The notes under the pieces are model-generated. The model did not search any database. It saw only the letters and a list, made by a program, of their open reading frames with translations, and had not been told where the DNA came from. A DNA stretch of 33,114 bases from NCBI RefSeq assembly GCF_018305005.1, contig NZ_JAGQEG010000066.1, positions 1 through 33,114 of the forward strand. Reading direction: 5' to 3'. Positions 14,445-17,414 of this stretch are shown here, one piece after another; within the stretch, counting starts at the first letter, position 1, and each line of letters opens with the position of its first letter. Source of the DNA: Collimonas silvisoli (GTDB lineage: Bacteria; Pseudomonadota; Gammaproteobacteria; Burkholderiales; Burkholderiaceae_D). Made by a program: the position numbers and the translations under genes.

Positions 14445-15336
14445 TGCTTGCGGAAGTCTGCTTGCCCTTCGCTTGCAGCCATGCGATAAAGTTGGCCAGT
14501 ACCGGGTCTTGATGACTGGGCCGAAACAGCAAGTGAAATCCCTTATCCTGCAAGCGCAAGTCCGGAAACAGCGGCAGCAAGGCGCCATGCGCAAGATCGT
14601 CTTCGATCAAGGCCAGCGAACCCATGGCAACCCCAAGATCGGTCAGCGCCGCCTGCAAACTTAAAAAGAAATGTTCGTAGATCTGGCCGGGCAACTGGCC
14701 TTTGATCGGCACACCGGCTTCGCCAAACCAGCGGGTCCACGTTTCCGAGCGGCTCGACAGATGCAGCAAGGATGCCTGCAACAATGCGGCCGGGCTGTCG
14801 AATCGATGTTGCTGCAGGTAACGCGGCGACGCCACCGGGGTCAGCACATCATCCAGGAAGCGTATGCATTCGTACTCGGCGCGATGCATGGGACTGCGCC
14901 GTATCAGTACGTCGAACGGCTCCTTGATGGCGTCGACCGCAACCGTCGAGGTGGTGACGCGAATCTCGACGCGCGGATTTTCTATCTGAAACGACGACAG
15001 CCGGGGAATCAGCCAGCGCATCGCCATCGACGGCGTGCAACTGACGCGGATGATGCGTACCTGGCCGGTATTGAGTAGCTGTTCTGCCGCCAGCGAGATG
15101 CGATCCAGCCCGGCTTTGACGTCGGCAAAAAATATCCGCGCCGCCGCAGTCGGCTCGACGCCGCGCTGCCCTCTGACAAACAAAGTCTGATCGAAATGCT
15201 GTTCCAGCAACTTGATTTGCTGGCTCACCGCGCTATGCGTCAGGTGCAGCTCGGCCGCGGCCAGCGTCAGGCTGCCGGTACGCACCACGGCTTCGAATAC
15301 GCGTAGCGGCTTGAGGGGTGGCAAACGTGTTTTCAT
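14425..15336 (-). CDS. LysR-family regulator, GcvA-like
   Basis: A 303-residue LysR-type activator/repressor. The helix-turn-helix is at about residues 6-65 (LKPLRVFEAVVRTGSLTLAA then SAVSQQIKLLE), and the C-terminal effector-binding domain follows from about residue 90. The opening RLPPLKPLRVFEAV is typical of the GcvA subgroup. No clear ribosome site precedes the ATG. It is divergent from a small DUF3563-like gene and convergent with cbiX, overlapping it by 20 nt. The target is unknown. The A/T-rich stretch 15340-15368 just upstream is a reasonable place for its binding site. Confidence 0.88.
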   Translation of the reverse strand: MKTRLPPLKPLRVFEAVVRTGSLTLAAAELHLTHSAVSQQIKLLEQHFDQTLFVRGQRGVEPTAAARIFFADVKAGLDRISLAAEQLLNTGQVRIIRVSCTPSMAMRWLIPRLSSFQIENPRVEIRVTTSTVAVDAIKEPFDVLIRRSPMHRAEYECIRFLDDVLTPVASPRYLQQHRFDSPAALLQASLLHLSSRSETWTRWFGEAGVPIKGQLPGQIYEHFFLSLQAALTDLGVAMGSLALIEDDLAHGALLPLFPDLRLQDKGFHLLFRPSHQDPVLANFIAWLQAKGKQTSASIRNGAA

Positions 15337-15469
15337 GTTAAAAAAACTTATATTTCAAATAGATAATGTGGCTTTAAGAAAAGCCTTGATCCGCCTATTC
15401 TACAGCCACGGTCATCGATAACGTAGCCGGCAAAAACTATTTTGCATGCTCATCAAGCGGGAGTTTGGC

Positions 15470-15694
15470 ATGGCGTTTTCCAATAAATTTTCTAATATCA
15501 AATTACAGACATTGCTACCTTCCGCCTGGTTGCAAAGGGCGGCGGCAAGCTGCATTGGCACGCTGGATGCGGAGCAGGCTTATCTCGCAGCAGCCCTGGA
15601 TCACGAAGATCTGGAGCGGCGTCTGCAGGTATTGGATTGCCGGCACGGATCGGTGCTGCATACATTGCGGGTGATGAAAAACGGTTCTTATTGA
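15470..15694 (+). CDS. Small protein resembling DUF3563
   Basis: A 74-residue predicted protein. The segment LDAEQAYLAAALDHEDLERRLQVLD resembles the core of the DUF3563 small proteins common in Burkholderiales, which have no established function. The start at 15470 was chosen because GGGAG precedes it by 7 nt; another in-frame ATG at 15446 lacks such a site. It has no signal peptide or membrane helix. It is divergent from the LysR gene, so it may be its target. The DUF3563 match is by eye only. Confidence 0.6.
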   Translation: MAFSNKFSNIKLQTLLPSAWLQRAAASCIGTLDAEQAYLAAALDHEDLERRLQVLDCRHGSVLHTLRVMKNGSY

Positions 15695-15782
15695 CGGCGT
15701 TTTATTTTCGCCGCCTGCCATCGCGATATGGACAGTCGGGATCGGTAATACATATTTTTTGGTGAAAGTAAAGCTTTTTTAC

Positions 15783-15811
15783 TTGACAGAATAGCTATCC
15801 GGAAATATAAT
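15783..15811 (+). promoter_or_regulatory. Perfect consensus sigma-70 promoter
   Basis: TTGACA (15783-15788), a 17-bp spacer and TATAAT (15806-15811) match the consensus exactly. Transcription should begin near 15818. The next full-size gene starts at 16158, leaving a leader of about 340 nt. Confidence 0.85.
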
Positions 15812-15842
15812 CCCCGCATTGCATCACATGGAGGTCCATATC

Positions 15843-15902
15843 TTGGACAGTTGTTCTAGTAGTAAGCGTGGATGGGTCCTCAGCCCGGCACATAGCGCAT
15901 AA
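15843..15902 (+). CDS. Putative 19-aa leader peptide with TTG start
   Basis: A perfect GGAGGT at 15830-15835 stands 7 nt before a TTG that opens a 19-codon frame ending at TAA 15900-15902, reading MDSCSSSKRGWVLSPAHSA. An in-frame ATG at 15828 would extend it to 24 residues but overlaps the ribosome site. Translation would run across the 5' strand of the long-range helix at 15870-15876, so it could couple ribosome movement to folding of the leader. No amino acid is obviously over-represented except serine (5 of 19). Confidence 0.45.
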   Translation: MDSCSSSKRGWVLSPAHSA

Positions 15903-16020
15903 CCTTTAGCAGACCTCCCTCCGCTACAGCTTGTGCATTATGCGAGCTGTAGTATCGCGGCAAAATCATCGCGGCAAATTGTTTTACACAATGCCGCAGC
16001 GATACTCCCATCCGTTTTTT
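15870..16020 (+). ncRNA. Structured leader RNA with terminator-like end
   Basis: Several perfect helices nest here. GGATGGG (15870-15876) pairs with CCCATCC (16007-16013) and is followed one base later by six T (16015-16020), like an intrinsic terminator closing a multibranch structure. Inside are CTACAGCT/AGCTGTAG (15924-15931/15945-15952), AGTATCGC/GCGATACT (15951-15958/15999-16006) and GCGGCA+TTGT/ACAA+TGCCGC (15971-15982/15988-15997). With the promoter at 15783 this gives either an attenuated leader or a separate small RNA of about 200 nt. It does not match 6S RNA, the M-box or another riboswitch that I recognise. Confidence 0.45.
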
Positions 16021-16157
16021 GTAAGACCGTTTTTCGCGCTGCCATTGGGCGGATTGCGTTCGGCTGTGTGTTCGCCTCAAGCATCTGAATAGGCCGTACA
16101 CCAGCTGTAGCAATGCGCCTGGCAATCCCGGCTAACGGAAGTGGGAAGGAAATCGCC

Positions 16158-16553
16158 ATGCCATTCAATAAACTATATGCATTTTTTAACAAGCATCGTC
16201 GCGCCGCAGCCAACGATAATCACGCGACAGATTTGCCTTATCGTATCGTGACCACCTGCCGTAATTCGGAAGTGGCCAAGCTCGAAGAGCTGATGCGCAA
16301 GCTGCTGTCGGCCTATAACGTGACTTATCAGGGCAACCAGCCTGCGGTGCAGGCGCATCTGACCAGTATCACGGTGGAAGTGATGTGCTCGGTGCGCGAA
16401 CGCGGCGGACTGGTGCAATTGGTAACCCGTCTGGCACAGGAAATCAGCGTCCGTAGCGTGCGTTGGGAAAGTATCCCCCAGCGTTCGGCACGGGCTGTCC
16501 AGGCCAAGCCCGCATCTCGCGCCGCGCACGCCGCCACGGCGTTGCCGGCATAA
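16158..16553 (+). CDS. Freestanding MgtC C-terminal (ACT-like) domain protein
   Basis: A 131-residue soluble protein. Residues about 27-110 resemble the cytoplasmic C-terminal domain of MgtC, the virulence and low-Mg2+ survival membrane protein. Shared landmarks are YRIVTTC near the start, two hydrophobic helices, a YQG turn, a beta strand SITVEV and the closing VRSVRWE strand. The hydrophobic N-terminal half of MgtC is absent, and no membrane helix or signal is visible. The ATG at 16158 has AAGGAA six bases upstream. The C-terminal tail is Ala-rich and low in complexity. It sits behind a long structured leader and is followed by a small ORF with its own AGGAG three bases after the stop. By analogy it could bind a ligand or modulate a partner protein, but the function is unknown. 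Confidence 0.65.
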   Translation: MPFNKLYAFFNKHRRAAANDNHATDLPYRIVTTCRNSEVAKLEELMRKLLSAYNVTYQGNQPAVQAHLTSITVEVMCSVRERGGLVQLVTRLAQEISVRSVRWESIPQRSARAVQAKPASRAAHAATALPA

Positions 16554-16569
16554 ACAGGAGTTAGTGAAA

Positions 16570-16665
16570 ATGGACTGTTCCAGTTGTCCGAATTATCGGA
16601 TCAGAAAATCAGTATCGAAAAATAGTAAAGCAGTTGTGTGCCTGCATTTGTCTGACCCCGTCTAG
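16570..16665 (+). CDS. Small ORF, 31 aa, CxxC peptide
   Basis: AGGAG at 16556-16560 precedes an ATG at 16570 (or a GTG two codons earlier). The frame encodes 31 residues starting MDCSSCPNYRIRKSV, with a Cys-x-x-Cys pair that could bind metal or be redox active. It begins 16 nt after the MgtC-like gene and would be on the same transcript. Near its end it contains TCTGACCCC (16651-16659), the complement of the core of the palindromic repeat found after cysB, so the 3' part may derive from a repeat. Expression is unproven. Confidence 0.35.
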   Translation: MDCSSCPNYRIRKSVSKNSKAVVCLHLSDPV

Positions 16666-16838
16666 CCATCCTCACTTTTCCGGTGTCGATTGGCCAGGCT
16701 GGACAGCTTGCAATCGACTGGCGGAATCTCTTCGTCGCAGTCGTCCGTGCCATTGCCGGCACGCCGCGCCACCGCTTTACATGTTGAACCTGCTTCGCGC
16801 AAAGCTGCGAACGAAGCACCGCATGAAAAGGTGAAATG

Positions 16839-17066
16839 ATGACCATCAAAACACTACTGGGTATTGCACCCGGCAACCGCAGCAATCGTGGCAGCGGCGG
16901 CACAGGCAACTGGACGTTCGGCTGGACGCCAAGCCAGGCGTCGGCGCTTTCCGGCAATGCGAAGGCAAAAAATATTAAGCGCGATATCAAGCGTGATACT
17001 GGCCGAAACGAGCGCCAAGTCGGCGTGTACGGTGTGCTGGCGACAGGTAGCGTCACCGGCCGCTGA
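16839..17066 (+). CDS. Hypothetical 75-aa Gly/Asn-rich basic protein
   Basis: Not recognised. AAAAGG about 8 nt upstream supports the second of two adjacent ATGs. After a short N-terminal helix-like stretch (MTIKTLLGI), the protein has a Gly/Ser/Asn-rich segment (GNRSNRGSGGTGNWTFGW) and then a very basic stretch (AKAKNIKRDIKRDTGRN), so it may bind nucleic acid or be disordered. A competing frame at 16864-17097 lacks a ribosome site. It is preceded by about 170 nt without a gene that contain a small CTTCG/CGAAG stem near 16795-16820. Confidence 0.45.
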   Translation: MTIKTLLGIAPGNRSNRGSGGTGNWTFGWTPSQASALSGNAKAKNIKRDIKRDTGRNERQVGVYGVLATGSVTGR

Positions 17067-17209
17067 GCGCGATCTTGTCATCGTAATAGTGACTTAAAGG
17101 CTGTCCCTGTCGCCGTTTCCTATGGCGGCAAGGCGCTGGTTATTTGAATGCGATAGTTCTTCGGTTTTACCGCATCAGCGGAGCCGATGTCGCAGGTAAG
17201 GAGTAAAAA

Positions 17210-17386
17210 ATGAAATGGGAATTTTTGAATAAGAGAGTTGCGGTATTTCTGGTATTGACTATGGTTGCTGCCGGCTTGGTCAGCTGGATTAATGTCTTGT
17301 CGCCTGAAGACCATCCGGATCAATCCGCTCCGGTTCTGGAAAAAGCACTGGCGTCACCGGCGCACGTCAAACCGTTCGTGCGCTAA
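17210..17386 (+). CDS. Small single-pass membrane protein, 58 aa
   Basis: A strong AAGGAG at 17198-17203 stands six bases before the ATG. The 58-residue product has a basic N-terminus (MKWEFLNKRV), one hydrophobic helix at about residues 10-30 and a polar, Pro/Ala/Asp-containing tail ending KPFVR, so an inner-membrane protein with an N-in orientation is likely. The tail could be periplasmic. It ends 28 nt before the convergent cobA stop. It is the last of the small genes behind the MgtC-like gene. It is not recognised; the size and topology recall small regulatory membrane peptides, but no homology is claimed. Confidence 0.55.
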   Translation: MKWEFLNKRVAVFLVLTMVAAGLVSWINVLSPEDHPDQSAPVLEKALASPAHVKPFVR

Positions 17387-17414
17387 ACGCATATCTCCGA
17401 CAAGCGGTAAAGAA

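Follow-up and report, generated by a model that had tools for sequence, protein, structure and literature searches.

The M-box and the Mg_sensor are Mg2+-responsive leader RNAs of Rfam. In other leaders, short open reading frames (ORFs) have been described. In the case of MgtL, the 5' end of a Mg2+ transporter mRNA contains a short ORF, and the leader shows alternative folds and premature termination, as set out in the excerpted text of PMC11282234. For mgtC of Salmonella, the excerpts of PMC3641672 report that stop codons before codon 7 of the short ORF mgtM derepress mgtC, that the amino acid sequence of mgtM is not conserved in mgtC homologues, and that mgtP responds to proline-charged tRNA. 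In mgtQ, a very short ORF, early acidic residues abort translation and alter the RNA fold (excerpts of PMC8092293).

The window (the whole analysed stretch of 33,114 nucleotides, contig NZ_JAGQEG010000066.1 of Collimonas silvisoli) holds a leader that can be set beside these systems. The original prediction had pointed to a perfect TTGACA-N17-TATAAT promoter, followed by a leader of about 340 nt and an MgtC-like gene, and had compared the arrangement with the Salmonella mgtC leader. Promoter and leader are present as claimed, with a 12/12 promoter match, and the comparison is apt. The conserved leader is genuine, and its key part is an ORF inside it that had been overlooked. We propose, with moderate confidence, that the leader (15818-16157, forward strand) controls a magnesium-uptake regulon as a leader-peptide attenuator, working like mgtL or mgtM of Salmonella but with a different peptide. 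The presence of an ORF with a Shine-Dalgarno (SD) sequence at the core of the element makes it look more like a leader-peptide attenuator than a riboswitch-like RNA, and since the same peptide start precedes magnesium-uptake genes of relatives, it may be a translated sensor for low magnesium. A separate small RNA had also been suggested, and the sequence gave no pointer towards one.

Although the M-box and Mg_sensor are likewise leaders of Mg2+ transporter genes, the window contained no Rfam match at gathering score, and for ten related loci the leader sequences matched only a tRNA. At E-values up to 10, four Rfam matches were obtained, all far under their gathering scores.

The element resembles MgtL (mgtA of Salmonella and E. 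coli) in that a short ORF with an SD, here presumably translated, lies in a Mg2+ transporter leader with alternative helices. It differs in that the EPDP motif of MgtL is destabilising and its terminator Rho-dependent, whereas the leader peptide of the window type starts with MDSCSS or MGTCSS and lacks EPDP, and the RNA folds differently and, in this copy, carries a T-run. No MgtL-type EPDP or acidic/proline repeat was found at the N terminus in any of 48 leaders, and, because Asp2 is replaced by Gly in the MGTCSS group, MgtL-like destabilisation by acidic residues does not provide a basis shared by all of them. Unlike MgtL, the window-type leader also occurs 5' of MgtC_C, OprB and NRAMP genes. 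According to the excerpts available, mgtQ lies between genes, ahead of mgtB, frees a ribosome-binding site and needs Asp2 and Glu5, whereas the MGTCSS group has Gly2.

As with mgtM and mgtP, the comparison concerns an mgtC leader with short ORFs. In the excerpted account the mgtM sequence is not conserved, whereas in MDSCSS leaders conservation centres on the start of the peptide. The same excerpts ascribe mgtM function to an A-run and ATP and that of mgtP to proline codons, while the window ORF has no A-run and no consecutive Pro codons, its peptide containing a single Pro. The tandem arrangement of an A-run first ORF and a proline-rich second ORF was not found in the window, and in 15903-16157 no further short ORF having an SD-like site was found. 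In Serratia (L097), an MDSCSC ORF with an A-run comes first in the mgtC leader and is followed by a PP-containing, mgtP-like ORF, and an mgtQ-like ORF lies between mgtC and mgtB.

Attenuation by a leader peptide is thus of a known kind. As far as we could find, the novelty lies in the peptide, in its host range and in its repeated use ahead of several gene families. In the open-licence PMC literature no account of an MDSCSS leader was found, and the papers among the listed PMC matches to the letters MDSCSS were, judged by their titles and the beginnings of their abstracts, on cell biology.

The promoter and the leader ORF

The promoter, of the sigma-70 type, spans 15783-15811 on the forward strand, with TTGACA at 15783-15788, a spacer of 17 nt and TATAAT at 15806-15811. 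It is the single 12/12 site among four promoter-like sites in 15300-17400, where shuffled sequence gave a mean of 2.0 sites scoring 9/12 or better. In all 27 intact homologues that were scored, a -35/-10 pair of at least 10/12 ended 30 to 32 nt 5' of the leader start codon. A decayed copy of the leader in a 1.7-Mb Collimonas genome (UBA1456; L014/L109), with a promoter of 8/12 and the ORF extended to 26 codons, was excluded from the alignments. Upstream of the promoter lies a small DUF3563-like ORF (15446-15694), scoring under the family cut-off.

The leader ORF (15843-15902, forward strand) is located between the promoter and the 3' arm of the long helix described below. It opens with the codons TTG GAC AGT TGT TCT AGT, giving the peptide start MDSCSS, and comprises 19 codons (MDSCSSSKRGWVLSPAHSA) followed by TAA. 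Its SD, GGAGGTC with the core GGAGG, is at 15830-15836 and can pair with 15912-15918. Besides this SD, in-frame indels and recurrence across genera suggest translation of the ORF. The start codon and GTGGATGG were 22, 25, 34 or 37 nt apart, which preserves one frame in 27/27 homologues through about three independent indel events, and the distances from SD to start and from stop to hairpin were looser in the same homologues. In all 28 homologues found by DNA or covariance-model search, TTG or GTG occupied the start position.

Codon usage was tabulated for 48 leaders, 44 of them from DNA or model search and four (L170, L173, L174 and L177) from the motif scan, which means that these four favour the motif. 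TTG was the start codon in 28, GTG in 13 and ATG in 7, and residue 2 was Asp in 40, Gly in 7 and Glu in one. Residue 5 was Ser in 44 of the 48 (codons TCT 30, AGT 7 and TCG 7) and Pro in two, and positions 3 to 6 were free of acidic residues throughout.

Alternative RNA structures and termination

A helix between 15870-15876 and 16007-16013, followed by G16014 and six T (16015-16020), had been predicted as the outermost element of the leader; it is there, and forms part of the minimum free energy (MFE) structure. Its 5' arm, GGATGGG, coincides with codons for Gly-Trp-Val of the leader ORF, and its 3' arm, CCCATCC, together with the G and the T6 (16007-16020), makes a possible terminator end. 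This long helix was 100% paired in 27/27 aligned relatives, with one-sided G-U changes in 5 of its 7 pairs and two-sided changes in none. Between its arms lie hairpin P2 (15924-15952, arms CTACAGCTT/AGCTGTAG), with 97.9% of cells paired and two-sided changes in three pairs, and hairpin P3 (15953-16004, outer TATCG/CGATA), with 71.5% of cells paired, again with three such pairs, and an interior whose length is highly variable among relatives. By eye, the length differences of P3 among Collimonas species (A2 columns 215-333) apparently reflect TCGCGGCAAA-like repeats. Taken together, the three helices were 92.8% paired, compared to 31 to 47% when the partners were slid by 1 to 3 columns.

An alternative structure combines P2 with hairpin A and with pairing of the SD to an anti-SD, GACCTCC, just 3' of the leader stop codon (15912-15918). 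Hairpin A (GTGGATGGGT...GCCCGGCAC, 15868-15891, -7.4 kcal/mol) lies within the ORF and excludes the long helix, the GGG of GGATGGG being common to both. In this structure 97.1% of cells were paired, compared to 33 to 48% for slid partners; the SD:anti-SD helix had two-sided changes in four pairs, and the eight pairs of hairpin A (98.6% of cells paired) showed one-sided changes alone. Two mutually exclusive structures are hence both conserved. The suggestion of a new cis-regulatory RNA is partly borne out, in that the leader has copies in relatives, matches no Rfam family and contains helices that covary, the two-sided changes in the aligned relatives falling in SD:anti-SD (4), P2 (3) and P3 (3).

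The MFE of the whole leader was compared with that of shuffled sequences (z = -2.13, 3 of 100 shuffles equally good), so that single-sequence folding is weak support and the comparative evidence carries the structure. The free RNA favours the long-helix state by 6.4 kcal/mol, and with a ribosome modelled on the leader stop codon, hairpin A would have its 3' arm covered. Across 58 non-redundant leaders, many of which are related, pairing of the SD with the post-stop region had a mean of -9.8 kcal/mol, compared to -8.6 kcal/mol after shuffling (0/100 as low) and -8.5 kcal/mol with swapped partners (0/200 as low as observed). Since this pairing goes beyond chance, feedback on leader translation may take part.

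The T-run behind the long helix varies with the type of copy. At least four T within 8 nt after CCCATCC were found in 12/13 MgtC_C-type and 4/5 Glaciimonas-type copies (16/18 MgtC_C/mgtC-type copies), and in 0/7 mgtA-type and 0/2 Undibacterium copies. The proposal that the long helix closes a terminator is plausible at 16020 for this copy, but, as the T-run is missing in all nine mgtA-type and Undibacterium copies, an intrinsic terminator is not the general mechanism; Rho may take its place elsewhere. Among 75 leaders, which include duplicates of the same genomes, terminator-like sites were detected in 12, five of them Serratia loci with a hairpin that looks the same, compared to 1.0 expected, and two of the 75 (L112 and L111) had strong ones. 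In L112, a leader from a Methylophaga MAG (MDSCSCSEIKRINLKS), a textbook terminator of -25.7 kcal/mol with a T-rich tail lies 28 nt past the stop.

Copies of the leader and the genes behind them

The gene downstream of the leader in the window (16158-16553, forward strand, 131 aa) had been described as MgtC-like. Its product matched MgtC_SapB_C with an E-value of 1.7e-5 and 25.7 bits, under the cut-off of 27, and this assignment is backed by an hhalign profile comparison to MgtC proteins over their C-terminal domain (probability 93.9).

By DNA search, the region was found, in full or in part, in 13/14 other genomes of the genus, seven of which had a second homologous copy (L016-L022). The two second copies examined lie 5' of MgtC_C-like and MgtA genes (L080) or of MgtA (L081), and the window's own genome has a further copy, L076, located 5' of mgtC. 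In Glaciimonas, the leader was observed 5' of mgtC (L120) and, as MGTCSS..., 5' of MgtA (L083). Widened to the family, the DNA search gave matches in 23 of 392 genomes; two of these matches (L047 and L048) lacked the leader motif and were rejected. A covariance model at E-values up to 0.01 matched 33/392 family genomes and, across the order, 7/399 genomes, the four outside the family being weak. Behind two divergent Undibacterium leaders (L078 and L082), no Mg2+-linked gene was found within about 2.7 and 7 kb, respectively.

A pattern of SD plus MDSCSS codons was scanned over 84,980 species genomes and gave 54 loci. The first recognised same-strand downstream gene belonged to the Mg2+-linked set in 40 of them (MgtA 9, MgtC 9, MgtC_C-like 6, OprB 15, NRAMP 1), some of the same loci having supplied the search seeds and thus matching themselves. 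In 9 of the 15 OprB loci, NRAMP is next after OprB. About nine named genera carry the peptide start, among them Ralstonia, Cupriavidus, Pandoraea, Herbaspirillum and Serratia. Five loci look like chance matches by taxon, in Ruminococcus (L087), Bdellovibrio (L090), Sporosarcina (L092), Planctomycetota (L106) and Streptomyces (L137), with a Mg2+-linked gene in 0/5; without them, the Mg2+-linked set accounts for 40/49. Five of the other nine have less than 700 nt of sequence downstream, and L089, L091, L100 and L133 have about 4 kb without a Mg2+-linked gene.

With a looser pattern, all three matches in the window's own genome were 5' of such genes, MgtC_C (the window), mgtC (C191) and mgtA (C167). 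Two matches were obtained in 302 other genomes of the class, L201 before an MgtA-type ATPase gene and L202, where a long ORF lies opposite and no Mg2+ gene was seen. A reversed control pattern matched four genomes of the class, and the pattern alone is therefore near chance at class level.

Upstream regions were taken from 60 genes of the order, the best-scoring 30 MgtC and 30 MgtA matches, a few of the regions being shortened; they carried the leader ORF in 6/60 cases on the forward strand compared to 2/60 on the reverse strand. It was not seen in 54 of the 60, and the leader marks a minority of the mgtA and mgtC genes of the order. Similarly, no leader was found at the one close MgtC relative looked at in the class search (L206) or in Caballeronia (L236). 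The MgtA assignment at L094 was a TIGR01524 match of 1377.9 bits. A Cupriavidus plasmid has the gene order porin-mgtA-mgtC, which ties OprB to the gene set; before the C. metallidurans porin, the leader was not seen in the stretch examined. In Pantoea, an ORF with a TTG start, MDTCPTRLQSVPMLR, was found 5' of mgtC.

Proposed mechanism, rival explanations and neighbouring small ORFs

In the attenuator we propose, RNA polymerase would start at the strong promoter near 15818, and a ribosome would load at GGAGG and translate the ORF (15843-15902). On arriving at the stop codon, it would shield the anti-SD in part, together with the 3' arm of hairpin A. With the ORF translated to its end, GGATGGG could then pair with CCCATCC behind P2 and P3, leading in this copy to termination at the T6 near 16020; in other copies, Rho or control of translation could replace termination at a T-run. 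At low Mg2+, the ribosome would be lost or stalled early on MDSCSS, hairpin A would form first, the long helix would be delayed, and transcription would read through into the MgtC_C-like gene. From anatomy and analogy we infer that Mg2+ is the signal, that it is sensed through early abortion by the ribosome and that transcription ends near 16020, as well as the direction of the switch, for which the opposite sign is possible. The derepression of mgtC by stops before codon 7 of mgtM, as given in the excerpts of PMC3641672, fits a switch thrown by early ribosome loss.

More tentatively, MDSCSS (with MGTCSS and MDCSSC) could be a dedicated nascent-chain sensor unlike the EPDP and proline motifs, on which the ribosome aborts or arrests within 6 to 8 codons when Mg2+ or a related divalent ion is scarce. 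It would be reused with different RNA switches before at least five families (MgtA, MgtC, MgtC_C, OprB and NRMT-like NRAMP), in a Mg2+ regulon of Betaproteobacteria reaching Serratia and some other Gammaproteobacteria; we hold this wider reading as possible, though short of probable. Perhaps the scarce ion is bound by the Ser/Cys/Asp-rich nascent chain itself. If true, this would provide a Mg2+ regulon with a readable signature for Betaproteobacteria, for which no description of a Mg2+-responsive leader was found in the open-licence PMC literature, and a new short peptide motif for studying how the ribosome senses ion scarcity within a few codons. A further prediction would then be that Mg2+ uptake also involves the OprB porins and the NRAMP-like transporters that follow this leader.

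NRAMP-type genes often encode Mn2+ transporters. Their presence among the targets, and the A-run of the Serratia ORF at the mgtM position, would suit a signal other than Mg2+, such as manganese, some other divalent ion, or ATP, the signal proposed for mgtM. However, MgtA and MgtC are also among the targets and the window ORF has no A-run. Furthermore, inspection by eye showed that the NRAMP proteins of L093, L072 and L122 have TxxA in place of A/CxxM and so no metal-binding Met, like the NRMT Mg2+ transporters, albeit with DxxA where NRMT has DxxG; L061 has DxxG and TxxS. We consider a non-Mg2+ signal rather unlikely.

The first four to eight codons are rich in Ser and Cys, and amino acid attenuation, with scarce charged tRNA-Ser or tRNA-Cys stalling the ribosome and refolding the RNA, would have a precedent in the response of mgtP to proline-charged tRNA (PMC3641672, as excerpted). 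Against this, the recognised downstream genes belong to ion transport and porin families, not to Ser/Cys metabolism, and both Ser codon families are mixed, which leaves this explanation improbable.

If the leader were instead a riboswitch binding Mg2+ or another ligand, the ORF would be incidental and its conserved letters would reflect RNA structure. The helices do covary and Mg2+-linked genes do lie downstream, and pN/pS gives no support for coding: over 14 distinct 19-codon ORFs it was 1.25, compared to 0.83 and 1.03 in the other frames, so that purifying selection on the whole peptide is not demonstrated. Nevertheless, the Collimonas helix arm GGATGGG was present in 6/49 genome-scan leaders, all of Collimonas/Glaciimonas type, while the peptide start, which all 49 have by construction of the scan, was retained without the arm at 43. 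The start codons, the SD and the in-frame indels, as well as the lack of an Rfam riboswitch match in the window and in the leaders of the ten related loci, likewise speak against a riboswitch, which we regard as distinctly improbable. Duplication of a non-functional promoter and 5' region along with a paralogous gene would account for the DNA-level homology of the Collimonas copies, but is very improbable given that, across about nine named genera, unrelated gene families are preceded by the peptide start and SD.

Apart from the proposed attenuator, two further small ORFs were noted 3' of the MgtC_C-like gene. The first (16570-16665, MDCSSCPNYRIRKSVSKNSKAVVCLHLSDPV) has its own SD and may either encode a small protein or act as another leader ORF; an ORF starting MDCSSCP or MDCPSCP was present in 12/13 Collimonas loci. 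The second (16839-17066), without a Pfam match at E-values up to 1, contains a WTFGW motif, and ORFs with GWIFGW or GWTFGW are present in the mgtA-type operons L080 and L081.
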